Positions 1 to 21,534 of a stretch of DNA of 26,113 nucleotides are shown in pieces (position 1 is the first letter of the stretch; each line of letters opens with the position of its first letter). The stretch spans positions 1 to 26,113 of the IMG/VR virus record IMGVR_UViG_3300009165_000032; one strand, written 5' to 3'. The stretch comes from a virus. Below the pieces are notes generated by a model. That model searched no databases and was not told the DNA's origin. It saw only the letters and a program-made list of their open reading frames with translations. A program made the translations under genes and the position numbers.

Positions 1-155
1 ACCTTATTGGTTCTCGGGTACTTCTTAAACTGTGGTGATGATGTGAACTCTTTCAGTTCATCTTTACTGCCCACAATACTGTACACATGAAATACTTTAC
101 CTTTTCCTGGTCCTTCTTTCACTTGCACATAATTTGATTCATAAATTGCTTTCAT
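1..155 (-). CDS. Hypothetical phage protein, N-terminal 51 residues only
   Basis: The reading frame opens at an ATG at 155 and runs leftward off the window edge, so only the N-terminus (MKAIYESNYVQVKEGPGKG...) is present. No stop is seen in 51 codons. The fragment is hydrophilic and charged, with no signal peptide or membrane segment, and I do not recognise a domain. The start is supported by an A-rich leader and by the CTAACCCTTAAC element 44 nt upstream at 199-210, the same arrangement as the other leftward genes. Likely an early-region protein of unknown function. The frame is convincing because the codon use is ordinary and a recurrent upstream element precedes it. Confidence 0.7.
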   Translation of the reverse strand, partial: MKAIYESNYVQVKEGPGKGKVFHVYSIVGSKDELKEFTSSPQFKKYPRTNK

Positions 156-198
156 AGCTGTAGTTGTTTATTGGTTTATAAAATTGTTATCAAAATAA

Positions 199-221
199 GT
201 TAAGGGTTAGAAAAAAGAGGG
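199..221 (-). promoter_or_regulatory. Leftward CTAACCCTTAAC element, copy 1
   Basis: On the minus strand this reads CCCTCTTTTTT followed directly by CTAACCCTTAAC. It lies 44 nt upstream of the ATG at 155. It is one of five copies in 1.4 kb, each ahead of a leftward unit. It does not resemble the Bacteroidota TTTG/TANNTTTG promoter, so a phage-specific promoter or conserved leader element is inferred. Confidence 0.6.
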
Positions 222-224
222 TTT

Positions 225-441
225 TTAAAAAAACTTGGAAGGCAGTACTCCTTTATACAGTATGCATCTTGTATAAAGTCCTTACCTATTAAAAACCAAG
301 TTTTTATTTTGCTGGATGACTAATCCTTGTTTGGGTCTTATACACCAAAGTCATAAGGTGATGCCCTATAGTTGGGTTACATCATATGTATTACATATAT
401 AGTATCATCATTAGTTCAGATACAATTGTAATACAAATTCA
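225..441 (-). ncRNA. Candidate small structured RNA, leftward unit without an ORF
   Basis: This stretch follows a CTAACCCT element (442-453) like the neighbouring genes do, but no frame gives more than a few codons from an ATG; the best I found is 16 codons. It ends in a perfect 10-bp stem, with 296-305 pairing to 229-238. On the minus strand that stem finishes as CCAAGTTTTTTT, which looks like a terminator. Inside it is a second perfect 9-bp hairpin (251-259 with 270-278, 10-nt loop). Further short complementarities sit at 360-390. I infer a noncoding RNA of roughly 200 nt. A very small peptide gene or a long untranslated spacer are the alternatives. Confidence 0.4.
229..305 (-). terminator. 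Large nested stem-loop ending in a U-run, minus strand
   Basis: Outer arms AAAAACTTGG and CCAAGTTTTT (10 bp perfect) enclose an inner CTTTATACA/TGTATAAAG hairpin (9 bp). Read leftward, the outer arm continues into seven T residues (227-233). It separates the candidate RNA from the next leftward element at 199-221. The 57-nt loop is long for a simple terminator, so it may also be a functional RNA fold. Confidence 0.45.
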
Positions 442-464
442 GTAAAGGGTTAGAAGAAAGAGGG
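442..464 (-). promoter_or_regulatory. Leftward CTAACCCTTTAC element, copy 2
   Basis: On the minus strand this reads CCCTCTTTCTT then CTAACCCTTTAC, one base different from copies 1, 3 and 4. It continues as TGAAT like copies 4 and 5. It sits just after the terminator of the 144-residue gene and ahead of the ORF-less unit at 225-441. Confidence 0.6.
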
Positions 465-475
465 AATACTAAAAA

Positions 476-496
476 CAAAAAAGGCCGAAGCCTTTT
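476..496 (-). terminator. Intrinsic terminator with UUCG loop, minus strand
   Basis: Read leftward, AAAAGGC-TTCG-GCCTTTT forms a 7-bp stem with a UUCG tetraloop and runs into six T residues. It overlaps the stop codon (495-497) of the leftward 144-residue gene, which fixes its direction. Confidence 0.8.
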
Positions 497-929
497 ATGG
501 TTGCATTTGTCCTACTTTGGATGCACAATTTTCCCAACTACTTAATTGGGTCCATGATCTTGCAGTTTCTGTTTCATTTGGAAATGTTAAAGTAATATAC
601 TTACCATTTCTACTGACCACATGCTCTTCATAGTTCTCTACTGTGATACTGTCTTCATCAGCATCTTTGTTTACATATATCTGTTTCTTCTTTACAGTAT
701 TATATGTATAGGTTACATCTTTAGTCCATTTGTTGTACATTAGAAATGTACATAGTTTGTTATCTAGTACAGACTGCTCACTGATAGTAGGCTCTGTATA
801 GACGCCTAATATTATCTCTGCAGCAACATCTGTATTCGGTGTATTACCTAGTATCTCTATTATTGCAGGAACTTGTTCTGCATTGAACTTAGTACTCAAT
901 GCAATTTCTAATACTGTTTTCATATACAT
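495..929 (-). CDS. Hypothetical early-region protein, 144 aa
   Basis: The frame gives a soluble, acidic protein with no membrane segment and no domain I recognise. The N-terminal half (residues 1-45) looks helical. The C-terminal half has alternating polar and aromatic residues suggestive of beta-strands (TYTYNT, KYITLTFP). The ATG at 929 is used here; an in-frame ATG two codons later (923) is an equal possibility. A CTAACCCTTAAC element lies 36 nt upstream of the ATG and a UUCG hairpin terminator coincides with the stop, so this is an isolated single-gene transcription unit. Position and orientation suggest an early gene. Function unknown. Confidence 0.75.
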   Translation of the reverse strand: MYMKTVLEIALSTKFNAEQVPAIIEILGNTPNTDVAAEIILGVYTEPTISEQSVLDNKLCTFLMYNKWTKDVTYTYNTVKKKQIYVNKDADEDSITVENYEEHVVSRNGKYITLTFPNETETARSWTQLSSWENCASKVGQMQP

Positions 930-964
930 ATATATTTAATTGGTTTATAATTATTTTGAGTTTA

Positions 965-987
965 GTTAAGGGTTAGAAAGAAGAGGG
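965..987 (-). promoter_or_regulatory. Leftward CTAACCCTTAAC element, copy 3
   Basis: On the minus strand this reads CCCTCTTCTTT then CTAACCCTTAAC, identical to copy 1 over the 12-nt core. It stands 36 nt upstream of the ATG at 929. Its leader shares TATAAACCAAT with the leader after copy 1. Confidence 0.6.
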
Positions 988-1002
988 AATAGGAAAACTA
1001 AA

Positions 1003-1018
1003 CAGAGCTATTGCTCTG
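1003..1018 (-). terminator. Short hairpin at gene end, minus strand
   Basis: CAGAGC-4 nt-GCTCTG forms a 6-bp hairpin overlapping the stop codon of the 54-residue leftward gene. On the minus strand it is followed by TTTAGTTTT. The U-tract is interrupted, so termination may be partial. Confidence 0.5.
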
Positions 1019-1172
1019 CTTGTTTCTCTATCTTTTCTCTTAATGCAGCTAGTGCATCAAATGCACCAATATCATAAGGATCTGGTATAACATCTGCCTC
1101 TAGGTCTTTACCTATTCTCTCATAGATAGCATCAATAGATTCCTGTATCATCTTTAGTATTCTATTATCCAT
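1008..1172 (-). CDS. Hypothetical small protein, 54 aa
   Basis: A short frame from the ATG at 1172 encodes an acidic, largely helical peptide (MDNRILKMIQESIDAIYERI at the N-terminus, AALREKIEKQAEQ at the C-terminus). No domain is recognised. It is accepted as a gene because it sits between a CTAACCCTTAAC element 25 nt upstream and a hairpin at its stop codon, exactly like its neighbours, and because its codon use is ordinary. Function unknown; the position suggests a small early regulator or host-directed protein. Confidence 0.65.
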   Translation of the reverse strand: MDNRILKMIQESIDAIYERIGKDLEADVIPDPYDIGAFDALAALREKIEKQAEQ

Positions 1173-1196
1173 AACTGTAAGTTTTATTTGTATTCA

Positions 1197-1208
1197 GTTA
1201 AGGGTTAG
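1197..1208 (-). promoter_or_regulatory. Leftward CTAACCCTTAAC element, copy 4
   Basis: The 12-nt core is identical to copies 1 and 3 and continues as TGAATACAAAT. It lies 25 nt upstream of the ATG at 1172. The pyrimidine stretch seen 5' of copies 1-3 is replaced by TTTTCT. Confidence 0.55.
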
Positions 1209-1248
1209 AGAAAACTATACTGTAATAATCTACAGGAATCACTCACTG

Positions 1249-1283
1249 AAAAAAAAAGTATATGGCTATATGCCATATACTTT
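1249..1283 (-). terminator. Strong intrinsic terminator, minus strand
   Basis: AAAGTATATGGC and GCCATATACTTT form a perfect 12-bp stem around a 5-nt loop. Read leftward the stem runs into a long T tract (complement of the A-run before 1258). The stop codon of the 78-residue gene (1266-1268) lies in the stem-loop, so stop and terminator are merged. Confidence 0.85.
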
Positions 1284-1502
1284 GCCAATGGCCCACTCAG
1301 TGCGGCCATTGTATACCTTTGTGAAGAGGTCAACAGTGTAAACGTTGCCCTCTTGCAAGCCTATTTTTGCACAATAGGCCTTGCCAAAGGTATGCCAGGT
1401 TTTGTTGATTATATCAAAACCGGCATAACACCAATCAAACTTGCTTTTGCAAAGTTTTATTTGTGTTGTCTTGAAATCTGGAACGGTAGTGGAAGTTTTC
1501 AT
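1266..1502 (-). CDS. Hypothetical protein, 78 aa, compositionally distinct
   Basis: The frame from the ATG at 1502 encodes a small basic protein with an aromatic-rich core (FDWCYAGFD, KTWHTFGKAYCAK, VYNGRTEWAIGKVYG). The alternating pattern in the C-terminal half suggests a small beta-barrel, but I recognise no family. It is followed by the best terminator of the leftward region and preceded by a CTAACCCTGAAC element 26 nt upstream. Its DNA is visibly richer in G+C than the other genes of the window, which hints at a different origin or recent acquisition. Function unknown. Confidence 0.7.
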   Translation of the reverse strand: MKTSTTVPDFKTTQIKLCKSKFDWCYAGFDIINKTWHTFGKAYCAKIGLQEGNVYTVDLFTKVYNGRTEWAIGKVYGI

Positions 1503-1527
1503 AGTCTAAATATTTAATTTAGATTCA

Positions 1528-1539
1528 GTTCAGGGTTAG
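1528..1539 (-). promoter_or_regulatory. Leftward CTAACCCTGAAC element, copy 5
   Basis: One base differs from the core of copies 1, 3 and 4. It continues as TGAATCTAAAT, matching the extension of copy 4 (TGAATACAAAT). It lies 26 nt upstream of the ATG at 1502 and is the rightmost leftward element, at the edge of the divergent region. Confidence 0.55.
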
Positions 1540-1779
1540 CCAGACAGACACACTACAACACTTTTTCTCCGAAGGAAAAAAGTTTGGTGTGGTTGGCTGA
1601 AATGAAGTGCCCTGCCAGCAAAGATAGGGGGTACCCCTAGCTGCAGCTTGGGCCGGGGTGCTTTCATTGGGGCTCCATCTCCATCTCTTATATACGGTGG
1701 TAGTAAGGCCGGGGGGTAGTAACCTTGGTTAAGTGTACCCGGAGTCTGAGGTAGGGGAGAAAATTATTATAAAAAATTT
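1540..1779. other. GC-rich divergent noncoding island: structured RNA or origin candidate
   Basis: No ORF is supportable here. The stretch at about 1590-1765 is far richer in G+C than the rest of the window. It contains a hairpin (1561-1582), the palindromes GGGGTACCCC (1628-1637) and AGCTGCAGCT (1639-1648), and a repeated GGCCGGGG (1651-1658 and about 1708-1715). There is a long-range complementarity between about 1600-1612 and 1656-1668. It is followed by the AT-rich AAAAAATTTTTT at 1771-1782. Such an island between divergent transcription blocks could be a replication origin or a structured RNA. The sequence alone does not decide. Confidence 0.5.
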
Positions 1780-1809
1780 TTTGTATATCCGGAAATAGTG
1801 CTACATTTG
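1780..1809 (+). promoter_or_regulatory. Bacteroidota-type promoter (TTTG-N18-TACATTTG)
   Basis: TTTG at 1780-1783 and TACATTTG at 1802-1809 are separated by 18 nt, matching the -33 TTTG and -7 TANNTTTG elements used by the Bacteroidota primary sigma factor. Transcription would start near 1816, just ahead of the terminator-like hairpin at 1855-1883. Confidence 0.6.
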
Positions 1810-1854
1810 TTGTGCTACTTTTTATATATTCTCCAATAATTATTTATTGAAACT

Positions 1855-1883
1855 AACCCTAGTTAAAACCTAGGGTTTTTTTT
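1855..1883 (+). terminator. Intrinsic terminator or attenuator, plus strand
   Basis: AACCCTAG and CTAGGGTT form a perfect 8-bp stem with a 7-nt loop, followed by eight T residues (1876-1883). It lies between the promoter at 1780-1809 and the element at 1916-1921, so it either ends a short RNA or attenuates entry into the rightward genes. Confidence 0.75.
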
Positions 1884-1910
1884 ATGGAGTTTAGTTATGG
1901 TTACAAAAAT

Positions 1911-1923
1911 ATTTTTATATTTG
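1911..1923 (+). promoter_or_regulatory. Rightward promoter element TATATTTG
   Basis: TATATTTG at 1916-1923 matches the Bacteroidota -7 box, but no TTTG is seen at the -33 position. The TATATT core ends 22 nt before the ATG at 1943 and directly follows a terminator. The same arrangement recurs ahead of other rightward blocks. Confidence 0.5.
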
Positions 1924-1942
1924 TTGTACCAACAAACTGTAT

Positions 1943-2149
1943 ATGAAAAGTATTATTAATGAGTCTAAGACTATTTTGTCTATTGTCTCTAAATCAGATG
2001 GAGAAATAGAGATTCAGATGGCACAAGTATCTGAGGAATCCAAACCAACTTTGATAGGTATACTGGAACAGTTAAAGTTTCAATTGTTGTCACAGGATGA
2101 AGAACCTGTACTTCCTATATTATTAACTGATAAAAGATTTCTAGCATAA
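1943..2149 (+). CDS. Hypothetical small protein, 68 aa
   Basis: First gene of the rightward cassette. It encodes a mixed alpha/beta peptide with a strand-like N-terminus (KTILSIVSKSDGEIEIQMA) and a helix (KPTLIGILEQLKFQLL), ending in DKRFLA. No family is recognised and there is no membrane segment. The next gene begins inside its stop codon (TAATG at 2147-2151), so the two are translationally coupled. The start is favoured by the TATATTTG element 22 nt upstream. Function unknown. Confidence 0.65.
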   Translation: MKSIINESKTILSIVSKSDGEIEIQMAQVSEESKPTLIGILEQLKFQLLSQDEEPVLPILLTDKRFLA

Positions 2150-2415
2150 TGGTAAAGAGATATGTAAAAAAACCTATTGAGGTTTACGCAGTTAAATGGA
2201 ATGGAGATAATAGATCTGAGATCTTTGAGTTTGTTGGTGACTATGCTAGCTTTGTTGTGTCTAAAGATTCAGCAAATGTGCAATTGGTTATAGATACTTT
2301 GGAAGGGCCTATGAGATCTAGTGTAGGAGATTATGTTATTAAAGGAATTAAAGGTGAGTTCTATGCATGTAAACCGGATGTGTTCATGTTGACTTATGAT
2401 AGTGTAATAAAATAA
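2149..2415 (+). CDS. Conserved phage protein with GDYVIKGIKGEFYACKPDVF motif
   Basis: The 88-residue product belongs to a small protein family common in phages of Gram-positive and Gram-negative bacteria. It is recognisable by an N-terminal KRYVKKPIEVYAVKWNGDN segment (residues 3-21) and the C-terminal GDYVIKGIKGEFYACKPDVF segment (residues 60-79) that ends in a TYD tail. Length and motif order fit the family, for which I know no established biochemical role. It overlaps the upstream stop by one base and sits in a cassette of small accessory genes just before the fibre region. The family assignment is by eye and fairly secure; the function is not known. Confidence 0.8.
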   Translation: MVKRYVKKPIEVYAVKWNGDNRSEIFEFVGDYASFVVSKDSANVQLVIDTLEGPMRSSVGDYVIKGIKGEFYACKPDVFMLTYDSVIK

Positions 2416-2424
2416 ATTAAATAT

Positions 2425-2697
2425 ATGGAAACAGAAACTAAAGGAATGGAAATGGAACTGAATGAAACTAAGATAAAGTCATTTGGTGAGATATTAGCAG
2501 AGACTGAGTTCAGTAATGCTAATGATGATACAGTAAGTAAAGTAAGGAGAATGATTGCTGAGATTGCTAACATACTTAAGGATGATTATAATACAGCTTA
2601 TAAATCTCCAGTAAAGAGTTTGTTATTTGATCATGCAATAGGAGAATTAGTTGGTGCTCAAACAGCAGTAGAAAAAGTAATTAATTTTAATAAATAA
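2425..2697 (+). CDS. Small two-helix protein; distant Acb2-like candidate
   Basis: The 90-residue product has an acidic N-terminal tail and two predicted helices. One is around residues 38-54 (SKVRRMIAEIANILKDDY). The second, at about 61-87, reads SPVKSLLFDHAIGELVGAQT followed by AVEKVINF. This layout, with a helix, a short linker and then an amphipathic helix with regularly spaced small residues, recalls small phage proteins of the DUF7681/Acb2 type that sequester cyclic nucleotides in anti-CBASS defence. That link is by pattern only and is weak. It could equally be an unrelated helical protein. It lies between the KPDVF-motif gene and the GroES-like gene, with 5-nt spacing to the latter. 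Confidence 0.65.
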   Translation: METETKGMEMELNETKIKSFGEILAETEFSNANDDTVSKVRRMIAEIANILKDDYNTAYKSPVKSLLFDHAIGELVGAQTAVEKVINFNK

Positions 2698-2702
2698 ATA
2701 TC

Positions 2703-2981
2703 ATGGAAAAATTATTTGGAAAAAGGGTGTTGATAAACATACCAGAAATGAAAGAATCAACTATTCAGTTGAATGATTCTGACAAAGAATTACTACAGAA
2801 AGAAGCTATTAAGAAATGGTCTCAGTTAGAAGTATTTGCTGTTGGTGATGAAGTAGAGAAAGTACAAGTTGGTGACAAGGTATATGTACAAGGTTACGGA
2901 TTAGAAGGTGCAGAGAAAGTTGAAATTGATGGCGCAATGAAATTGATGGTAAAAGAATTTGATATTGCTTTTAAATATTAA
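2703..2981 (+). CDS. GroES-like co-chaperonin
   Basis: The 92-residue length matches Cpn10/GroES (about 95). Residues 6-15 (GKRVLINIPE) fit the first strand. Residues 17-40 occupy the position of the mobile loop that binds GroEL. Residues 42-62 (LEVFAVGDEVEKVQVGDKVYV) match the GEVVAVGxG...VKVGDxVLF core. Residues 73-90 (VEIDGAMKLMVKEFDIAF) match the terminal VKIDGEEYLILKESDILAV strand pair. The mobile-loop region is divergent and lacks the usual GGIVL sequence. By analogy with T4 gp31, the likely role is to cap host GroEL and enable folding of a phage protein such as the capsid subunit. No phage GroEL is present in the window. Confidence 0.8.
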   Translation: MEKLFGKRVLINIPEMKESTIQLNDSDKELLQKEAIKKWSQLEVFAVGDEVEKVQVGDKVYVQGYGLEGAEKVEIDGAMKLMVKEFDIAFKY

Positions 2982-2986
2982 TAACT

Positions 2987-3319
2987 ATGTCACCGCAGGA
3001 AGAATATATATATGAGACTATGGGAAGTGCAACAAGAGAATGGCATGAGGAAGAACTTAGATATCAATCTCCTCTTAAAGTAGAAGCTGAAGAGTTGTTT
3101 TGTAAGAAGCATAGTGCTGTTAGACCTGCTCATTATGGTGGGAAAGATAATATATATGAAGTCTTTAATGTATTAGAAGCTTGGGAATTAGATAAAGATT
3201 TCTATCTAGGTAATGTTATTAAGTATGTAGCTAGAGCTGGAAAGAAAAATAAATCTAAAGAAAAGGAGGATTTACAAAAAGCTTTAGTATATTTGCAAAG
3301 AAGAATTGATTCTTTATAG
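2987..3319 (+). CDS. DUF3310 family phage protein
   Basis: Residues 46-107 carry the DUF3310 signature: RPAHYGGKDNIYEVFNVLEA, then a short linker, FYLGNVIKYVARAGKK, a basic linker, and EDLQKALVYLQRRI. The family is widespread in phages, often annotated as nucleotide kinase-like, but its biochemical role is not established. Residues 1-45 are an added acidic, helical extension (EEYIYETMGSATREWHEEE). It is the last gene of the five-gene cassette; a strong hairpin terminator begins 28 nt after its stop. The family call is confident. Confidence 0.88.
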   Translation: MSPQEEYIYETMGSATREWHEEELRYQSPLKVEAEELFCKKHSAVRPAHYGGKDNIYEVFNVLEAWELDKDFYLGNVIKYVARAGKKNKSKEKEDLQKALVYLQRRIDSL

Positions 3320-3346
3320 TCTGCGTGTTTTAAATGGTTAATTGGG

Positions 3347-3380
3347 AATCCCTGGAACTTTTGTTCTGGGGATTTTTTTT
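3347..3380 (+). terminator. Intrinsic terminator after DUF3310 gene
   Basis: AATCCCTGGAAC and GTTCTGGGGATT form a 12-bp stem with two G-U pairs and a TTTT loop, followed by a T-run to 3380. It ends the 1943-3319 cassette. Confidence 0.9.
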
Positions 3381-3390
3381 ATTCATGAAA

Positions 3391-3411
3391 TTTTTGTATA
3401 TTATAGTATAT
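3391..3411 (+). promoter_or_regulatory. Rightward promoter element for fibre block
   Basis: TTTTTGTATATT at 3391-3402 is followed by ATAGTATA. The TATATT core ends 27 nt before the ATG at 3429. The sequence and the exact spacing are repeated at 24332-24350 before the scaffold gene, and it directly follows a terminator. Confidence 0.6.
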
Positions 3412-3428
3412 AAAAACTACATATTAAA

Positions 3429-3974
3429 ATGGATATACTTAATTTTATTTCTTGGCTTAAAAATGGTAAAAGGTTTGTAACCTCAGTAGATCCTACTAAA
3501 GCTTTATTACCTGTAGGACAAAAAGATGGCAGAAGAGATGATGACTATCTTGCTGGTGCAATGACATTAACTAATGCAGTACAATCAGGTAATGTTGGTA
3601 ATACTAAACATTATGAGTTAGATATTACAGCTACTCCTGTTGTAACAGTAGATACTCCTCGTGGTATTATTGATATCCTTGGTATGGGCTCATCTGTTCC
3701 TTTAACTCCTGATCCAGCTTATGCTAATTCAGTATCTTTTATTATTAATAATCCAGATCTAGATCTTACCGTAGGTAATAAAGATAACATATATGTACAA
3801 TACTCTGTATATTACAGCAATACTATAACTGATAATGCTATTCCATATTTAATTGCGACAGGAGTTTCAGCTGGATTAGGGTTTAATCTTTATAATGCTA
3901 ATCCTACATTAGCTGGTGCTAATAACTGGAATGGTGAGTTGTATGTATACTATGAATTATACACAATTAATTAA
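3429..3974 (+). CDS. Fibre-associated protein with shared N-terminal adaptor, 181 aa
   Basis: Residues 1-48 (MDILNFISWLKNGKRFVTS, LLPVGQKDGRRDDDYLAGAM) are the adaptor also found at the start of the proteins at 4911 and 12192. I infer that it docks these proteins to a common virion site. The remaining 130 residues are Asn/Thr/Tyr-rich with strongly alternating hydrophobicity (SVSFIINNPDLDLTVG, IYVQYSVYYSN, GELYVYYELYTIN) and look like a single beta-sandwich domain. It is the first gene of the fibre block. The short length suggests a small appendage, decoration or fibre-tip subunit and not a full fibre. No enzyme motif is seen. Confidence 0.75.
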   Translation: MDILNFISWLKNGKRFVTSVDPTKALLPVGQKDGRRDDDYLAGAMTLTNAVQSGNVGNTKHYELDITATPVVTVDTPRGIIDILGMGSSVPLTPDPAYANSVSFIINNPDLDLTVGNKDNIYVQYSVYYSNTITDNAIPYLIATGVSAGLGFNLYNANPTLAGANNWNGELYVYYELYTIN

Positions 3975-3993
3975 TAAATAAATAAAAAATAAC

Positions 3994-4890
3994 ATGGCAT
4001 TTAAAGGACAATTTACATATGGTATACCAGTAACAGCAATCAACATAGTTGATGTACTACCTGATAATGCAGTTATACCAGCTTCAGTAGTAGATAGTAA
4101 AAAAGGTAATGTATTAGGTATCACTGTTGGAGATTTTAAATCTTCTATAGTACCTTCATTTAATAACTGTAATATACCTTATGGTACAGATGCTTTATTT
4201 AGCATTACTACGGGTACTAATAATGTTGCTATTGGTTGTGAAAGCATGTATTATACAAATGCTGGAAGTAACAATACAGCAGTAGGAATGCAAGCTTTAT
4301 TTACTAATAGAAGTTCTAATAACACTGCAATTGGAGCAACTGCATTATATAACAATTATAATGGTACTTCTAATAGTGCTGTTGGATTAAATGCATTACG
4401 ATTTAATACTAATGGTTATAACAATGTTGCTGTAGGCGCAAATTCATTACGAGATAATACAACTGGTAATTTAAATACTGGATTAGGTCAAGATGCTTTA
4501 CAGTATCAAACTACAGGAGAATTCAATGTAGGTATTGGTGTAAATTCTGGTGTAAAGTTAACAACTGGTAGTTATAATATTGGAATTGGTTATAGAAGTT
4601 TTGAAGGAAGTACTGATTTAACTGGACAAAATAATATTGCAGTTGGTGGGAATTCTGGAGAAAATGCTGGTGTAGCAACTTTTAGTATTGCAATTGGTGC
4701 TACTACAAAAATTAATGGTTATTCAAACTCTTTAATTTTAGGACACGGTGCTACTGCTACAGCTAGTAATCAATTTGTAGTAGGCAGTTCTAGTTATAAT
4801 GCAGGATCTGTAACTACAGAAGTTAACAGTTCTACTCAAGTATGGAATGTTATAATTAATGGTGTAGCAAGAAAAATATTACTAGCATAA
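3994..4890 (+). CDS. Fibre protein with 17-residue NTAVG-type repeats, 298 aa
   Basis: From about residue 62 the protein is built of about ten tandem repeats of roughly 17 residues with the pattern N-(T/V)-A-(I/V)-G-xx-(A/S)-L-xxNTTG (for example NTAVGMQALFTNRSSN, NVAVGANSLRDNTTGNL). This resembles the YadA/Hep_Hag head repeats that form left-handed beta-rolls in trimeric adhesins. The C-terminus, residues 250-298 (TATASNQFVVG, then WNVIINGVARKILLA), is shared with the next gene. The N-terminus (MAFKGQFTYGIPVTAINIV) is not the MDIL adaptor but ends in a similar VGDFKSSIVPSF linker. Likely a trimeric tail fibre; tandem paralogue of 4911-5969. Confidence 0.8.
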   Translation: MAFKGQFTYGIPVTAINIVDVLPDNAVIPASVVDSKKGNVLGITVGDFKSSIVPSFNNCNIPYGTDALFSITTGTNNVAIGCESMYYTNAGSNNTAVGMQALFTNRSSNNTAIGATALYNNYNGTSNSAVGLNALRFNTNGYNNVAVGANSLRDNTTGNLNTGLGQDALQYQTTGEFNVGIGVNSGVKLTTGSYNIGIGYRSFEGSTDLTGQNNIAVGGNSGENAGVATFSIAIGATTKINGYSNSLILGHGATATASNQFVVGSSSYNAGSVTTEVNSSTQVWNVIINGVARKILLA

Positions 4891-4910
4891 ACTAAAAAAC
4901 AAAAAACAAA

Positions 4911-5969
4911 ATGGATATCTTAAATTTTATTTCATGGATTAAAGGAAGCAGAGTTGTAACAACTGTTGATGCTTCTAGAACACTATTACCTGTAGGACTT
5001 AAAGATCCTAAAAGAGATGATGGTTATTTGGCTGGTGCTATATCAGTAGCTGATTTTGCAAGTGCTATTGTTCCAACATTTACAAATTGTAATATTGCAT
5101 TTGGTGAAAATGCATTAAGTAATATATCTTCAGGCACTGGAACTTCAAATATTGCTATAGGATGTAATTCTATGGCAAATACAACTAGTAATCCATTTGC
5201 AAATATTGCAATAGGTGAAGATACATTAAAAAATACAGCTAACCTTTATAATATTGCTATAGGTTATGGATCACAGAAGAATAATGTTAATGGGCAAGCT
5301 TGCATTGGTATTGGTATTGATACATTAAAAGAAACTGAAAATGGACCAAATATAGCTATTGGAAACTATGCTTTACAAAGAAATACAATTGGATTTAGAA
5401 ATGTTGCAGTTGGATCTGAGTCATTAACATTTAATACTACAGGTGAATTTAATACAGCATTTGGTGTTCAATCATTAAGACAAAATACAACAGGAAACGC
5501 AAATACAGCTATTGGTGATAGTTCATTAAACTTTAATGATGGTGGAGTTTTTAATGTTGCTGTAGGTTATGAGTCTTTATATTCTAATACTAGTGGGCAG
5601 TTTAATACTGCTACAGGTTATAATTCTTTGCGCGGTAACACTACTGGGTTTTTTAATACTGCTGTAGGTAATTTTGCCTTGTATAACAATACAATTTCTA
5701 CTAGAAATACAGCAGTTGGTGGATATTCTTTAGATGATAACACTACTGGAATAGGAAACTCTGCATTAGGTTATGAAACGGAGTCTGGAAACTTTAGTAA
5801 TTCTGTTATACTTGGAAGAAGTGCAACAGCTACAGCATCAAATCAATTTGTTGTAGGTTCTACAACTTACAATGCTGGTGCAATTGCTACTGAAGCATTA
5901 ACTCTTACAACATCTTGGAAAGTAAAAATCAATGGTGTTGATTATAAAATTCCATTACAACTAGCTTAA
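4911..5969 (+). CDS. Fibre protein: adaptor plus 17-residue repeat beta-roll, 352 aa
   Basis: Residues 1-50 form the shared adaptor (MDILNFISWIKGSRVVTTVD, LLPVGLKDPKRDDGYLAGA). Residues 61-300 hold about thirteen 17-residue repeats such as NTAIGDSSLNFNDGGVF and NTATGYNSLRGNTTGFF. Residues 296-352 form a C-terminal cap (TATASNQFVVGSTTYNAGA, WKVKINGVDYKIPLQLA) matching that of the preceding gene. The organisation suggests a trimeric, elongated tail fibre with a beta-roll shaft. The two neighbouring repeat fibres probably arose by tandem duplication followed by loss or gain of repeats and exchange of the N-terminus. Start chosen at the conserved adaptor Met, after an A-rich leader. Confidence 0.85.
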   Translation: MDILNFISWIKGSRVVTTVDASRTLLPVGLKDPKRDDGYLAGAISVADFASAIVPTFTNCNIAFGENALSNISSGTGTSNIAIGCNSMANTTSNPFANIAIGEDTLKNTANLYNIAIGYGSQKNNVNGQACIGIGIDTLKETENGPNIAIGNYALQRNTIGFRNVAVGSESLTFNTTGEFNTAFGVQSLRQNTTGNANTAIGDSSLNFNDGGVFNVAVGYESLYSNTSGQFNTATGYNSLRGNTTGFFNTAVGNFALYNNTISTRNTAVGGYSLDDNTTGIGNSALGYETESGNFSNSVILGRSATATASNQFVVGSTTYNAGAIATEALTLTTSWKVKINGVDYKIPLQLA

Positions 5970-6001
5970 TAAATATATTAACTTTATAAAAACTAAAAAC
6001 A

Positions 6002-6244
6002 ATGAGTACTCCAGAAATTAAAGAACCTGCTATTACAGCAGAACAAGCAGCAAAATCAGTATCTGCCGCTTATGATAGTGTTAACCTTATAGTTGAATTA
6101 AAAGCTAAAGAAAGTTTAACAGAAGAAGAAGTAGACAGACTAGAAAGAAACAAAAAACATATTGAGATTATGTTAGGTAAAGAATGGTTTGCTAAAGCTT
6201 TAACTGCAAAACAAAAAGCTGAATTAGTAGCTATCAATGCATAA
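6002..6244 (+). CDS. Small helical protein after fibre gene, 80 aa
   Basis: An acidic N-terminal tail (STPEIKEPAITAEQAAKSVS) is followed by two or three amphipathic helices, including LIVELKAKESLTEEEVDRLE and a Lys-rich segment ending KAELVAINA. There is no signal peptide or membrane segment. It lies 32 nt downstream of a fibre gene behind an A-rich leader. Small helical proteins in this position are often fibre chaperones or minor virion components, but no family is recognised and no function is claimed. Confidence 0.7.
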   Translation: MSTPEIKEPAITAEQAAKSVSAAYDSVNLIVELKAKESLTEEEVDRLERNKKHIEIMLGKEWFAKALTAKQKAELVAINA

Positions 6245-6263
6245 TTTGTATTTATAAATTTTA

Positions 6264-6271
6264 TATATTTA
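6264..6271 (+). promoter_or_regulatory. Possible rightward promoter element TATATTTA
   Basis: TATATTTA resembles the -7 box TANNTTTG except in the last base. Its TATATT core ends 29 nt before the ATG at 6298, within the spacing seen for the other rightward elements. TTTG at 6245-6248 is only 15 nt upstream, so the match is partial. Confidence 0.35.
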
Positions 6272-6297
6272 CAGTGTAAATTTAAAAAATTTAAAAC

Positions 6298-6459
6298 ATG
6301 AAAACAGAAGATGCAATCAAAGTAATTGAACAAGCTTTAAATGTAGCTACTAAAGAAGGTGTTTATAGTTTGGCTGATGCTAATCAAATACTAGCAGCAC
6401 TACAAGCTTTACATTCTTTGGTACAAGAAAGTAATCCTACTATAATATCTGCTGAGTAG
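6298..6459 (+). CDS. Hypothetical small helical protein, 53 aa
   Basis: This short frame starts at the ATG at 6298 and ends at a TAG at 6457-6459. It encodes MKTEDAIKVIEQALNVATKE followed by a second helix (DANQILAALQALHSLVQES). It is soluble and entirely helical in appearance. It is accepted because codon use fits the neighbours, a terminator follows within 25 nt and an AT-rich leader precedes it. Small helical proteins of this kind are common in Bacteroidota phages, but I know no function. It may form its own short transcript with the TATATTTA element at 6264. Confidence 0.65.
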   Translation: MKTEDAIKVIEQALNVATKEGVYSLADANQILAALQALHSLVQESNPTIISAE

Positions 6460-6481
6460 TAGTATTAAAGATGTTGCAAAT

Positions 6482-6507
6482 ACCCTGGAAATCTTCCGGG
6501 GTTTTTT
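6482..6507 (+). terminator. Intrinsic terminator within fibre block
   Basis: ACCCTGGAA and TTCCGGGGT form a 9-bp stem (one G-U pair) with a 3-nt loop, followed by a T-run to 6507. It separates the repeat-fibre genes from the next block beginning at 6566. Confidence 0.9.
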
Positions 6508-6520
6508 GTTTATATGAAGT

Positions 6521-6543
6521 TTTTTTACTATATTACTATATAA
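6521..6543 (+). promoter_or_regulatory. Rightward promoter element before 6566 gene
   Basis: A T-run followed by ACTATATTACTATATAA. The TATATT core (6529-6534) ends 32 nt before the ATG at 6566 and lies just after the terminator at 6482-6507, as at the other rightward block starts. Confidence 0.5.
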
Positions 6544-6565
6544 TCTATATTAAAATAATTATATT

Positions 6566-6925
6566 ATGTCAATAGGAAATTTAAAAGATAGTGGTAATCA
6601 GGGTAATAACTATCCTTGGCAATTTAAAGTATTGTTAGGTTTAGATAAAATATTCTCTGCTTTGAGTGGAAGTACTACATCATATCTAGCACCTCAAGAA
6701 AGAACTCCTGTTATAAGTAGAGTATCAACTTCAGGAACAGTTCCTAGTGGTGTATATAGTATATCATTTGCTAATGTTGGTTCAGCTAATGGAACAGTTG
6801 GAGGTGCTACTTTTAAACCAGGAGAAACAATCAACTTTGATGCAGGTGTATTGAACAATACATTAAGTACATCATTTAGTTATGATGCAACTGGTACTGA
6901 CTTTTTAATAATATATATACAATAA
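6566..6925 (+). CDS. Conserved Bacteroidota-phage structural protein, 119 aa
   Basis: The N-terminus MSIGNLKDSGNQGNNYPWQF is a motif I associate with a family of small proteins in tail regions of Bacteroidota phages. A helix (KVLLGLDKIFSALSG) follows, then a C-terminal beta domain (residues 48-119) with the pattern PSGVYSISFANVGSANGTVG, GETINFDAG, TDFLIIYIQ. That domain looks like a small jelly-roll or immunoglobulin-like module. Its stop codon overlaps the ATG of the 417-residue protein (TAATG), which suggests coupled production of two interacting virion proteins. The exact role is unknown; baseplate or fibre attachment is plausible. Confidence 0.75.
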   Translation: MSIGNLKDSGNQGNNYPWQFKVLLGLDKIFSALSGSTTSYLAPQERTPVISRVSTSGTVPSGVYSISFANVGSANGTVGGATFKPGETINFDAGVLNNTLSTSFSYDATGTDFLIIYIQ

Positions 6926-8178
6926 TGAGTACAATTATAGGAATCTCAGGAGGAATAACGGATCTTATAGCAGAGTATCCGATGTCTGTTGATGCTTTTG
7001 GCAGAGATAGAGTTAGTATTCCTTATACTATTGGTGACTATAAACATATATATGGATTAAATATAAATTTTCTAGATAAGATAAGTAATGGTGGTGCAGT
7101 ATCTTTTTTACCAGATCAATCCAGTGCTTTATTATCTACAACATCAAATCCATTAAGTAGTGCAATTCATCAAACAAAAATTTATCATAATTATGTACCT
7201 GGTAAAAGCCAATTAATATTTTCAACAATCTGCTTTAAATCAGCAGTTGTTAATGTAACAAAAAGAACTGGTTATTTTGATGATAATGACGGTATCTTTT
7301 TTGAGCAAGTTGGAGATGGTACACTATCATTTAATTTAAGAACTAACACAAGTGGGTCTCCTATTGGTACTAGAGTAGTTCAATCTAATTGGAATGTAGA
7401 TAAGTGTAATGGAACAGGACCTTCAGGTTATAACCTTGATATAACTAAAACTCAATTTTTCTTTATTGATTTTACATGGTTAGGATTAGGAAAAGTAAGA
7501 TGTGGATTTTTAGTTAACGGTACATACATTATTGCTCATGAGTTTAGAACATCAAATACTATTGATGTACCCTACATGGCTAATCCAAATTTACCTGTAA
7601 GATGTGAAATATTTAACACAGGAGCAACAACAGGTGGTTCTTTTAATCAGATTTGTTCTACTGTTATTAGTGAAGGCGGAGATGCTGATGCTGGTCAAGA
7701 TTGGTCAACAGTAAATGAAACACTAAGAACAGTTGCTGCAGGTGCAACTATTCCTTTGATTGCAATCAGATTATCAAATACCTTTCAAACATATCCAAAT
7801 AGATTAGTTGTAAAATTACAAGAATTTAGTTTATATTCATTAAAAGAACCTTTAGTATATAAAGTAATTAAACTTCCAAATCAATCTTATTTAACAGGAT
7901 CAACATGGAATCCTGTTGATGCAAGATCTGGTGTTAGTGTAAATATTACAGCAACTGCATATACTGATGGTTTAGTATTTGCTACAGGTTATGTATCTGC
8001 TGCTGTTGGTAATAGAGGTAGTGTAAATTCTGATCCTAGTGCATCAGATGCAAGACAAAATTATATTGTTCAAAATTATGATTCTAGTGATTCAGAAATT
8101 TATATCATTGCTGTAACTAATCTTGGAACAACAAGTACTACAGCAGGAGCATCAATGCAATGGAGAGAAATATATTAA
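6925..8178 (+). CDS. Conserved phage structural protein with beta-sandwich core, 417 aa
   Basis: Residues 113-245 match a distinctive virion protein family seen in many aquatic phages. Its hallmarks are KRTGYFDDNDGIFFEQVGDG (113-132), a Leu-Arg-Thr strand, QSNWNVDKCNGTGPSGYNLD (153-172), TQFFFIDFTWLGLGKVRCGF (176-195), an AHEFRTSN segment, and NLPVRCEIFNTG followed by ICSTVISEGG. These strands suggest a laminin-G or concanavalin-like jelly roll. The C-terminal 130 residues form a second beta-rich domain. It is translationally coupled to the small structural protein before it and followed at 10 nt by another small gene. A fibre, spike or baseplate role is inferred; no catalytic motif is recognised. 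Confidence 0.85.
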   Translation: MSTIIGISGGITDLIAEYPMSVDAFGRDRVSIPYTIGDYKHIYGLNINFLDKISNGGAVSFLPDQSSALLSTTSNPLSSAIHQTKIYHNYVPGKSQLIFSTICFKSAVVNVTKRTGYFDDNDGIFFEQVGDGTLSFNLRTNTSGSPIGTRVVQSNWNVDKCNGTGPSGYNLDITKTQFFFIDFTWLGLGKVRCGFLVNGTYIIAHEFRTSNTIDVPYMANPNLPVRCEIFNTGATTGGSFNQICSTVISEGGDADAGQDWSTVNETLRTVAAGATIPLIAIRLSNTFQTYPNRLVVKLQEFSLYSLKEPLVYKVIKLPNQSYLTGSTWNPVDARSGVSVNITATAYTDGLVFATGYVSAAVGNRGSVNSDPSASDARQNYIVQNYDSSDSEIYIIAVTNLGTTSTTAGASMQWREIY

Positions 8179-19326: not shown

Positions 19327-21534
19327 ATGAGTGAAATTTATCAAGATATACCCACATGGGATAATGGAGTTATTACTACAACTAGTTTTAACTCAAGAGA
19401 AGAATTCTCAGATTTTGTATTTTCTATATTTAAAATACCAGGACAATATAACTTTAATGCTACATCTTCAGAACTATTTACACAAGAATCTAGAAGTTTT
19501 AGAAAAAATAAAGTTTATTGTCTTGCTCCATTTAAATCTAAAGACTTTATAACTTACTGGGATGATAAAAAAATCAAATGCAGAAAAGGTTTTTTAATTA
19601 AAGATAAAGGTGACAGCTGGTTTATGACCCGTGAGTATTATATGTGGTTAAACTTCTTACCTATATTTAATAAGGAAATACAGCAGTTTGGTTTTGCAGA
19701 TATAAGAGATGCACAGTATCATATGACTCTATATGAACTATTAGCTGAGTTAAATTATAAACATGTTGCTATTCTTAAGAAAAGGCAGATTGCTTCTTCT
19801 TATTATCACATGGCCAAGTTATTAAATCAGCAATGGTTTGAAGAAGGGGTTACTCTTAAAATTGGTGCAAGTCTTAAGGATTATATTAATGAAAAAGGTT
19901 CTTGGAAATTTTTACAAGAATATGCTGCATTTTTAAATGAACATACTGCATGGTATAGACCGATGTCACCAGATAAAGTAATGATGTGGCAACAAAAGAT
20001 TGAGGTAAGAAAAGGGGATAGAAAAAATGAAGTTGGTCTTAAAGGAACTATACAAGGTATGTCTTTTGAGAAAGATCCAACAAATGGTGTCGGTGGACCA
20101 GTAAAATACTTCTTTCATGAAGAAGCTGGTATAGCTCCAAAGATGAATCAAACATATGAGTACATGAGACCAGCAATGAGATCTGGTTTAATTACTACAG
20201 GTATGTTTATAGCTGCAGGTTCTGTGGGTGATTTATCTCAATGTGAACCTTTAAGAAAAATGATTATATATCCAACTGAAAATGATATATATGCAGTAGA
20301 GACTGATTTAATAGATGGTAAAGGTACAGTAGGTATATCAGGTTTATTTATTCCTGAGCAATGGTCTATGCCACCTTATATAGATGAATTTGGAAATTCT
20401 AAAGTAACAGAAGGTTTGATTGCTTTAGATAATCAATTTGAGAAATGGAAAAAAGAATTAGATCCACAGACATACCAGTTAAGGATATCTCAGCATCCAA
20501 GAAATATTGAGGAAGCTTTTGCAAATAGAACAGTATCTGTATTTCCTACTCATCTTATAGCAGCACAACAAAGAAGAATAGAAGATAAAGAATATGCTTA
20601 TGAATTTTTAGATATATTTCCAGATCCTAATGGTAAGGTAAGAGTTGAACATAGTAATAGAAGACCAATCAATGAATTTCCAGTAACTAAAAATACTGAA
20701 GATAAGACAGGTGTATTAGTTGTTTGGGAAAGACCTATAGCTGATCCTACATTTGGTCAGTACTATGCTTCTATTGACCCTGTATCTGAAGGTAAGACTA
20801 CTACATCTGAATCATTGTGTTCTATATATATCATGAAGGCACCTGTTGAAGTAACAAAAGTTACTGGTGTAGAGACAGAAACTTATATAGAACAAGATAA
20901 GATTGTAGCTGCTTGGTGCGGTAGATATGATGATATAAACAAAACTCACCAAAAACTAGAATTAATAATTGAATGGTATAATGCCTGGACACTTATTGAG
21001 AATAACATCTCTTTATTTATTCAGTATATGATATCCAGAAAAAAACAAAGATTCTTAGTACCAAAAAGTCAAATCATGTTCTTAAAAGATATTGGTGCTA
21101 ATGCTTCAGTATATCAAGAATATGGTTGGAAGAATACTGGTACTTTATTTAAAGCTCATTTACTTAGTTACTGTATTGAATACACTAAAGAAGAATTAGA
21201 TGTTGAAACTAAAACAGATGGTACAATAGTAAGAACTAAATATGGTATTGAACGTATACCAGATATAATGCTACTTAAAGAAATGTCTGCATACTCTGAT
21301 GGAGTCAATGTGGATAGATTAGTTTCATTTTGTGCATTGGTTGCTTTTATGAGAATTCAGCAAGCAAACAGAGGTTATAGTAAGAGAGTAGTCATGGATG
21401 ATATGGCTAAAAACTTGCAAAAGTCAGAAAATTTGTTTAAATTAAATAACAGTCCTTTCCGTCATATGGGAGGAATAGGTAAACTATTGAATGGTCAAGG
21501 GTTTAAAAAATCCGCATTTAAAAATATTAAATAA
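19327..21534 (+). CDS. Terminase large subunit (TerL)
   Basis: This 735-residue protein has the two-domain TerL layout. In the ATPase domain, the P-loop position is occupied by the divergent LKKRQIASSYYHMAK (residues 150-164) and Walker B by VKYFFHEEAG (259-268) with the acidic pair Glu 265/Glu 266. In the RNase H-like nuclease domain, an Asp lies in YYASIDPVSEGKT (Asp 484), an acidic residue near 558 (IENN) and an Asp in NVDRLVSFCALVAF (Asp 663). The N-terminal 100 residues contain a Trp/Tyr-rich segment. It motors DNA into the procapsid through the portal encoded next (2 nt gap). The non-consensus P-loop is typical of the divergent crAss-like terminases as I know them. Confidence 0.92.
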   Translation: MSEIYQDIPTWDNGVITTTSFNSREEFSDFVFSIFKIPGQYNFNATSSELFTQESRSFRKNKVYCLAPFKSKDFITYWDDKKIKCRKGFLIKDKGDSWFMTREYYMWLNFLPIFNKEIQQFGFADIRDAQYHMTLYELLAELNYKHVAILKKRQIASSYYHMAKLLNQQWFEEGVTLKIGASLKDYINEKGSWKFLQEYAAFLNEHTAWYRPMSPDKVMMWQQKIEVRKGDRKNEVGLKGTIQGMSFEKDPTNGVGGPVKYFFHEEAGIAPKMNQTYEYMRPAMRSGLITTGMFIAAGSVGDLSQCEPLRKMIIYPTENDIYAVETDLIDGKGTVGISGLFIPEQWSMPPYIDEFGNSKVTEGLIALDNQFEKWKKELDPQTYQLRISQHPRNIEEAFANRTVSVFPTHLIAAQQRRIEDKEYAYEFLDIFPDPNGKVRVEHSNRRPINEFPVTKNTEDKTGVLVVWERPIADPTFGQYYASIDPVSEGKTTTSESLCSIYIMKAPVEVTKVTGVETETYIEQDKIVAAWCGRYDDINKTHQKLELIIEWYNAWTLIENNISLFIQYMISRKKQRFLVPKSQIMFLKDIGANASVYQEYGWKNTGTLFKAHLLSYCIEYTKEELDVETKTDGTIVRTKYGIERIPDIMLLKEMSAYSDGVNVDRLVSFCALVAFMRIQQANRGYSKRVVMDDMAKNLQKSENLFKLNNSPFRHMGGIGKLLNGQGFKKSAFKNIK

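Follow-up and report, generated by a model that had tools for sequence, protein, structure and literature searches.

Repeated motifs at the heads of early units in a crAss-like phage: candidate promoters for a virion RNA polymerase

Introduction

Which enzyme reads the early genes of a phage whose leftward units each open with a copy of the same short sequence? The question is raised by the phage record IMGVR_UViG_3300009165_000032, 26,113 bp in length and analysed whole (referred to here as the window), in which leftward units occupy the first 1.54 kb and rightward genes run from position 1943 to the end. Five copies of a 12-nucleotide (nt) motif lie among the leftward units. An original prediction, made without database searches, regarded them as phage-specific early promoters and suggested a link to the virion RNA polymerase of crAss-like phages. 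The motif, the anatomy of the units it heads, its confinement to the early region, and its co-variation with the phage RNA polymerase are described below. Judging from these sequence comparisons, the five copies are very probably early promoters read by the phage's own, co-injected virion RNA polymerase. The motif is most likely the docking site of that polymerase, since in relatives it tends to change when the polymerase changes.

Five motif copies and the units they head

A search for CTAACCCTTAAC with at most one mismatch yields five copies in the window, all on the minus strand and all within 199–1539. None is found on the plus strand or elsewhere in the window, and the reversed control pattern gives 0 matches. 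The five positions, the strand, and the relation among the copies (three identical, and those at 442–453 and 1528–1539 with one mismatch) are as originally predicted. With two mismatches allowed, eight matches occur in the window, compared with a shuffle mean of 2.26 and a maximum of 7 in 100 shuffles. Chance occurrence is ruled out by the shuffles together with the confinement of motif matches in two relatives, G017 and G009, described below.

Read leftward on the minus strand, the first unit is headed by copy 5 (1528–1539, CTAACCCTGAAC), with an ATG 25 nt downstream, an open reading frame (ORF) of 78 amino acids (aa; 1266–1502), and a terminator-like hairpin with a T run at its end (1283–1255). 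Copy 4 (1197–1208, exact) is followed by an ATG after 24 nt, an ORF of 54 aa (1008–1172), and a terminator-like hairpin (1021–1000), and copy 3 (965–976, exact) by an ATG after 35 nt, an ORF of 144 aa (495–929), and a terminator-like hairpin (496–479). Copy 2 (442–453, CTAACCCTTTAC) heads a gene-less unit of ~210 nt (222–441), with no ORF of ≥30 codons in the 110 nt searched and a long stem at ~305–229 that closes the unit. Copy 1 (199–210, exact) has an ATG 43 nt downstream, belonging to an ORF (3–155) that is truncated by the left end of the window and encodes 142 aa in the near-identical phage L088. Each spacer is the distance between the motif core and the first downstream ORF of ≥30 codons, measured to its ATG. 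For each of copies 1–4, the preceding unit thus ends in a terminator-like hairpin or stem ahead of the copy.

That four copies precede an ATG had been foreseen, at distances of 25–44 nt, which are corrected here to 24–43 nt. Other predicted details also held, namely a TGAAT extension after copies 2, 4, and 5, a CCCTCTTYYTT tract before copies 1–3, and hairpins at the ends of the units, with the long stem serving in unit 2. The gene-less unit itself had been missed.

None of the early ORFs of 78, 54, and 144 aa has a PHROG match. In other phages with the same motif (type A), look-alike ORFs of 136–148 aa head the unit corresponding to copy 1. Used as a probe, the 142-aa early protein finds only three near-identical records. 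The gene-less unit folds only weakly better than its shuffles (z −1.77 for the closing part and −0.25 for the first part), and no Rfam family reaches its gathering score in the gene-less units, where three weak matches fall far below. A 3′ element of this unit (AATAGGTAAGGAC...GTACTGCCTTCC) also occurs in the units of L162 and L212 and is missing from near-identical L088 (unit at L088:6216–6395). It therefore looks exchangeable.

The promoters of Bacteroidetes hosts consist of a TTTG element at −33 and a TANNTTTG element at −7, spaced 17–20 nt apart. The corresponding pattern, TTTG-N17-20-TANNTTTG, has two sites in the window, at 1780–1809 and 2224–2254 on the plus strand, and none that overlaps a motif copy, which agrees with the prediction that the motif is unlike host-type promoters and disposes of a host promoter at the motif. 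A looser TTG pattern has six window sites, again none at the motif copies, and its reversed control has three.

The type-A motif in relatives

Pattern scans recovered the near-identical phages L088 and L089 plus more distant phages. At least 107 loci were found, among them at least 21 with two or more same-strand type-A matches and at least 12 with clusters of a second motif, type B. Two of the 21 (L176 and L206) are GC-rich DNA with tandem look-alike repeats and do not belong to this system, and three others (L171, L179, and L211) were left out of further reading. In relatives with the type-A motif, which is written CTAACCCTTAACT as a promoter template, the copies again lie on a single strand, one per unit.

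Matches in whole records are clustered, as opposed to the scatter that would have spoken against the original prediction. In type-A phage G017 (103,767 bp), all 3 motif matches lie on one strand within 840 bp, and in G009 (117,768 bp) 11 of the 12 matches to that phage's own motif lie within 2.7 kb. This confinement to the early region supports, at the level of sequence, a phage-specific early promoter. Across 50 other records of the group (4.29 Mb), the type-A pattern has 11 matches, six of which are units with type-A variants (G073, G049, and G074).

In L088, a hairpin and T run begin a few bases past a sixth copy, and beyond them lies ~1.1 kb without long ORFs that is partly very AT-rich. 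This last unit spans L088:6940–8086, and a comparable stretch is seen in L097 from 8071 onward. Units of this kind recur in L097, L157, L177, L182, L189, L196, L205, L216, and L221. A possible role for the hairpin unit behind the last copy is that of an RNA-primed origin or of a leader carrying an attenuator.

Different motifs within the same anatomy

Phage G009, whose terminase large subunit (TerL) is 83% identical to that of the window, has the same layout with a different motif, AACATCTTWTTACTTA (type B). From a de novo search and a reading of early regions, further motifs were obtained: CAACTTYTATTG in G055 and G077; TATACAGCTTNTTACT (type D) in G039 and G057, with a variant in G056; TACTTCTTTCTACT (type E) in G062; AATCTTTAGTAAG (type F) in G063; CCAACTCATAACT in G075; ACCATTTTATAACT in G036 and G045; GACCTCTCTGAATT in G070; and AACCC variants in G073, G048, and G046. 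Because tail-fibre repeats dominated an initial clustering score, scoring was confined to the early region. In all, nine motif types were read in 16 genomes, and a WACT end is common to six of the nine. By counting, the motif exceeds 12 shuffles in 10 of the 16 genomes.

The anatomy of the units is retained across these types. In 17 early regions, the window included, a terminator-like structure precedes 109 of the 153 motif sites at a distance of no more than 75 nt, versus 37 of 648 control positions; some of the 153 sites may be chance, since the search tolerated two to four mismatches to the seed. When the window is set aside, 106 sites in the remaining regions are followed by an ORF of ≥30 codons within 60 nt, with a median spacer of 24 nt. 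Homologous early genes are found behind different motifs in 12 pairs representing about seven gene groups. For example, a protein that is 97% identical over 58 aa stands behind motifs of types G and H.

Several small elements accompany the early regions of these relatives. A structured RNA of ~100 nt is located at L103:17701–17816 in G009 (z −4.5) and is also present in G062, L133, and L136. It stands behind type B in G009 and L136, behind type E in L400–L403, L405, and L407, and in another setting in L404 and L406. The G009 copy has no match in Rfam. GGTCA direct repeats occur just past the last motif copy in the last gene-less units of G055, G056, and G077, and a single GGTCA is present in G063 and G075. 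A downstream stretch is, by eye, paired with the 3′ half of the motif in the final type-B unit (TTTCTACT...AGTAGAAA; L126 at 11568, L133 at 7991, and L139 at 5026), and the pairing arms differ in step between phages.

Co-variation of motif and polymerase

Homologues of gp66, the polymerase of phage phi14:2, are encoded by G009 (E 2e-15) and G011 (E 8e-14), and G017 and G025 encode homologues of the G009 polymerase. All four proteins contain DFDxD. A 2238-aa neighbour protein of G009 is not the polymerase, and a PDB sequence search with it returned nothing.

Motif similarity was compared with protein identity in 16 genomes, comprising G009, G017, G025, and 13 of 17 fetched early regions (18 stretches). 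The four regions omitted were G046, in which TerL is split in two, G047, in which the early region is outside the stretch, and G061 and G071, which had no clear motif. Of two further stretches, that of G032 was left out altogether and that of G066 was covered by one pattern search. Ten shorter polymerase records were left out of whole-record scans.

Motif similarity follows the identity of the polymerase core (Mantel rho 0.69, p 0.0002, which is the floor of 4000 permutations) and not that of TerL (rho 0.04, p 0.34). The partial correlations are 0.69 (p 0.0002) for polymerase given TerL and 0.10 (p 0.21) for TerL given polymerase, and the two sets of identities are mutually uncorrelated (rho −0.05). 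Six gene families located ~2–10 kb downstream of the last promoter copy yield rho values of −0.03 to 0.17 (p 0.13 to 0.54), compared with 0.57–0.71 for the polymerase on the same genomes (8–14 per family). The result persists in smaller sets: for the 10 genomes whose motif exceeds shuffles, rho is 0.76 (p 0.0014) with polymerase and 0.26 (p 0.09) with TerL; for 13 genomes after removal of near duplicates, 0.66 (p 0.0004) versus −0.01; and for seven genomes with one or two per type, 0.77 (p 0.009) versus 0.15 (p 0.26). Pairs sharing a motif type (9 of 120) are recognized by polymerase identity with an area under the curve (AUC) of 0.96 (p 0.0005), and of 12 genomes, 9 share their motif type with the closest relative by polymerase and 4 with the closest relative by TerL. 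The predicted link to a crAss-like virion polymerase is thereby strengthened, in so far as sequence correlation can do so.

Individual genomes illustrate the pattern. The three type-A polymerases form one clade (100/100), whereas the TerL tree places G073 and G048 with types E and F (98/97) and leaves G017 separate, at an unresolved fork. G025 (type B) and G039 (type D) have TerL proteins that are 96% identical and polymerases that are 53% identical, and in five of the six neighbour families the nearest relative of G025 is G039 or G057, both of type D (71–92%). Similarly, G062 (E) and G063 (F) are 93% identical in TerL and 36% in polymerase. G048 (A) and G062 (E) share 91–96% identity in three neighbour families, 85% in TerL, and 42% in polymerase, and a fourth neighbour family puts G048 nearest G017. 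The polymerase-associated protein does not track the motif in the one comparison available, since it is just 21% identical between G009 and G025, which have the same motif type.

Some genomes outside the 16 follow suit, with motifs of the type, or a variant of the type, of the nearest polymerase clade. In G041, whose polymerase is nearest type D (60–61%), TACAACTTWTTACT is found five times when up to one mismatch is permitted. The polymerases of G049 and G074 are closest to type A (58–59%), and these two genomes have five and four copies of CTAGCCCTTAAC variants, while G046 (nearest A, ~62%) has ATCAACCC variants. These four were noticed through motif matches or reading, before their polymerases were placed. 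In G042, the polymerase is 71% identical to that of type D, and nine copies of AACTGTGTNNTACTA occur with at most one mismatch.

Weighing the evidence

A number of observations weigh against a promoter matched to the polymerase. By k-mer counting over the last 1.9 kb, the five window copies equal but do not exceed the maximum of 12 shuffles; the motif derives its weight from the strand and position of its copies and from their recurrence in relatives. The choice of motif types and seeds was made after the sequences had been seen. In G017, G073, G048, G056, G075, and G070 the motif is not above shuffles by counting, and these six motifs rest on resemblance and placement. In G025 it exceeds shuffles thinly (8 versus 7), and no clear motif emerged from the early regions of G061 and G071. 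In the same-type test, an association with motif type is seen for TerL as well (AUC 0.78, p 0.002), its AUC differs from that of the polymerase with a p of 0.084, and the six neighbour families range from 0.37 to 0.82, one of them reaching 0.82. The two type-B genomes are not sisters in the polymerase tree, in which type E groups with G009 (96/97). In addition, the window's own polymerase gene is not within its record. The same search found no comparable repeated motif in phi14:2, the only one of these phages with a studied polymerase in the literature consulted, although a diverged motif is possible, and no claim is made for all Crassvirales for this reason. The sole forward prediction, that G042 would have type D, was formed from its polymerase before the early region was read and was not logged; it came out half right, with a 3′ half as in type D and a changed 5′ half. 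Finally, whole-record scans show no motif cluster in G047, G050, and G067, with polymerases nearest type A, or in G030–G035, G043, and G051, with polymerases nearest type B. The gene order at the ends of G047 and G050 suggests that the early region lies in the gap between the record ends, and the part of G034 that was read contains no cluster.

Other explanations can be offered for a motif with this distribution. It might be where a phage regulator of the host RNA polymerase binds, as an operator or activator site with the real promoter beside it, and the CCCTCTT tract that precedes many type-A copies could be a second element of such a site. This is unlikely: motif similarity goes with polymerase-core identity, the window copies are free of overlapping host-type TTTG-TANNTTTG pairs, and some type-B spacers to the ATG are only 16–20 nt. 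Host promoters of an unusual sigma class, with a motif that tracks the host, appear highly improbable. Host identity cannot be held constant across these metagenomic phages, and a looser host-type site (near chance level) does face leftward at 1932–1904, on the strand of copy 5 and 365 nt ahead of it. However, phages that are 93–96% identical in TerL differ in motif, type A is common to phages that are just 82–83% identical in TerL, and early transcription of phi14:2 is described as rifampicin-resistant (PMC10136315).

Co-variation could also arise without any contact between motif and polymerase if both travel in one recombining block. In a circular or permuted genome the early cluster would lead through the replication arm to the polymerase block, and early genes and promoters may move together. 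No co-variation with the motif is seen for the six gene families of that arm, and homologous early genes stand behind different motifs. Both points make linkage a very unlikely cause, although a double exchange could still happen. The least probable reading, to which hardly any credence is given, is that the copies are replication repeats (iterons) or a translation signal. A gene-less copy of L088 does adjoin the ~1.1-kb, partly very AT-rich stretch without long ORFs, but the copies occur once per unit, on the coding strand, and mostly after a terminator-like structure. A pure translation signal is contradicted by the copies that head gene-less units.

Proposed mechanism

With the motif taken as a promoter for the virion polymerase, early transcription would proceed as follows. 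A two-barrel virion RNA polymerase, homologous to gp66 of phi14:2 and presumably packed in the virion in this clade, would enter with the DNA and read the five promoters, starting RNA at the motif, probably a few bases past the WACT end. Each early unit would be transcribed separately, from a start of its own through a single gene or small RNA to a separate terminator, and the late genes on the opposite strand would be left to the host polymerase. The polymerase gene appears to be exchanged and fast-diverging within the clade, with an early promoter set that would match the resident enzyme. A further proposal, somewhat more doubtful than not, is that the virion polymerase is swapped between close relatives, each swap being accompanied by a concerted rewriting of the whole early promoter set (a few to about fifteen), with the homologous genes kept.

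Gene content and placement of the window

The rightward genes of the window include TerL (19327–21534, plus strand, phrog_6681) and the portal protein (21537–24272, plus strand, phrog_6547), both of which are 22–23% identical to their counterparts in phi14:2, a phage filed under Crassvirales. Membership in Crassvirales is borne out by TerL and portal homology, with TerL identities of 23–26% over 81–90% among the 40 of 134 matches listed. A blastn search of window positions 1–8000 against phages returned 12 short matches and no close phage. Two rightward ORFs (3994–4890 and 4911–5969) contain short N-T-A rich repeats and look tail-fibre-like by eye.

Between the leftward and rightward genes, the host-type promoter-like site at 1780–1809 (plus strand) faces the late genes. 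It is weak evidence by itself, since two sites occur in the window versus 1.16 expected by chance. A similar TTG(C/T)GGGG...TTTT...TANNTTTG stretch is seen on the late strand in G017 (52098 onward), G009 (54305 onward), and G025 (8558 onward), and is a candidate host-type late promoter. The same divergent early/late region of the window contains a GC-rich block of the CCCCGGCC...GGTACCCCC kind at 1600–1750. By eye, similar blocks are present across motif types, at ~95.8 kb in G009 and in the early regions of G014, G046, G048, and G073.

Comparison with known systems

Phage polymerase promoters as such are of an already known kind. In the T7 group, a phage polymerase has many copies of one cognate promoter, and specificity differs between relatives, which is the likeness to the present case. 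The T7 enzyme is an unrelated single-subunit polymerase, whereas the crAss-like promoters are early-region elements and their enzyme would be delivered by the virion. The virion polymerase of N4, another co-injected enzyme with early promoters of its own, uses hairpin promoters with a short stem and a 3-nt loop. It belongs to a different polymerase family, and the motif core described here is not, by eye, an inverted repeat or self-complementary.

Among related phages, transcription has been described for phi14:2, in which early transcripts are rifampicin-resistant and attributed to the virion polymerase, with the host enzyme probably responsible for the late genes (PMC10136315). The motif-bearing relatives resemble it in having a homologous polymerase with DFDxD and early genes that diverge from the late genes. 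In reasoning, the closest parallel would seem to be P23-45, in which a conserved motif precedes the pre-early starts of a tail-fused virion RNA polymerase and is present in relatives that have the polymerase and absent in those that do not. P23-45 differs in having two phage polymerases and two motifs within a single phage, measured start sites and ChIP data, and a termination motif that is also unusual, according to the portions of that work consulted (PMC10770324).

Polymerases of crAss-like phages are described as fast-evolving, and DNA polymerase switching has been noted among these phages (Yutin et al., PMC7886860). The word promoter does not appear in the main text of that paper or of the Crassvirales review (PMC10136315), as far as these were consulted, and the promoters in the consulted parts of PMC8375218 are invertible ones of the host. 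The literature surveyed, to which the primary study of the phi14:2 polymerase did not belong, contains no promoter sequence for a crAss-like virion polymerase. As far as seen, three things are apparently new: candidate promoters for a crAss-like polymerase, promoter-gene-terminator cassettes that include gene-less ones, and co-variation with an exchanged polymerase.

Significance

The motif is lineage-specific even among close relatives. With matching polymerases at hand, such lineage-specific candidate promoters make recognition by the two-barrel enzyme directly testable in vitro. They would also make it possible to flag early genes in the genomes of uncultured crAss-like phages and are a possible source of orthogonal polymerase/promoter pairs. 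If polymerase and promoter set are indeed exchanged and rewritten together, the resulting pairs would be mutually incompatible and would keep lineages apart from the very start of infection: an injected polymerase would not read the early genes of a co-infecting relative.

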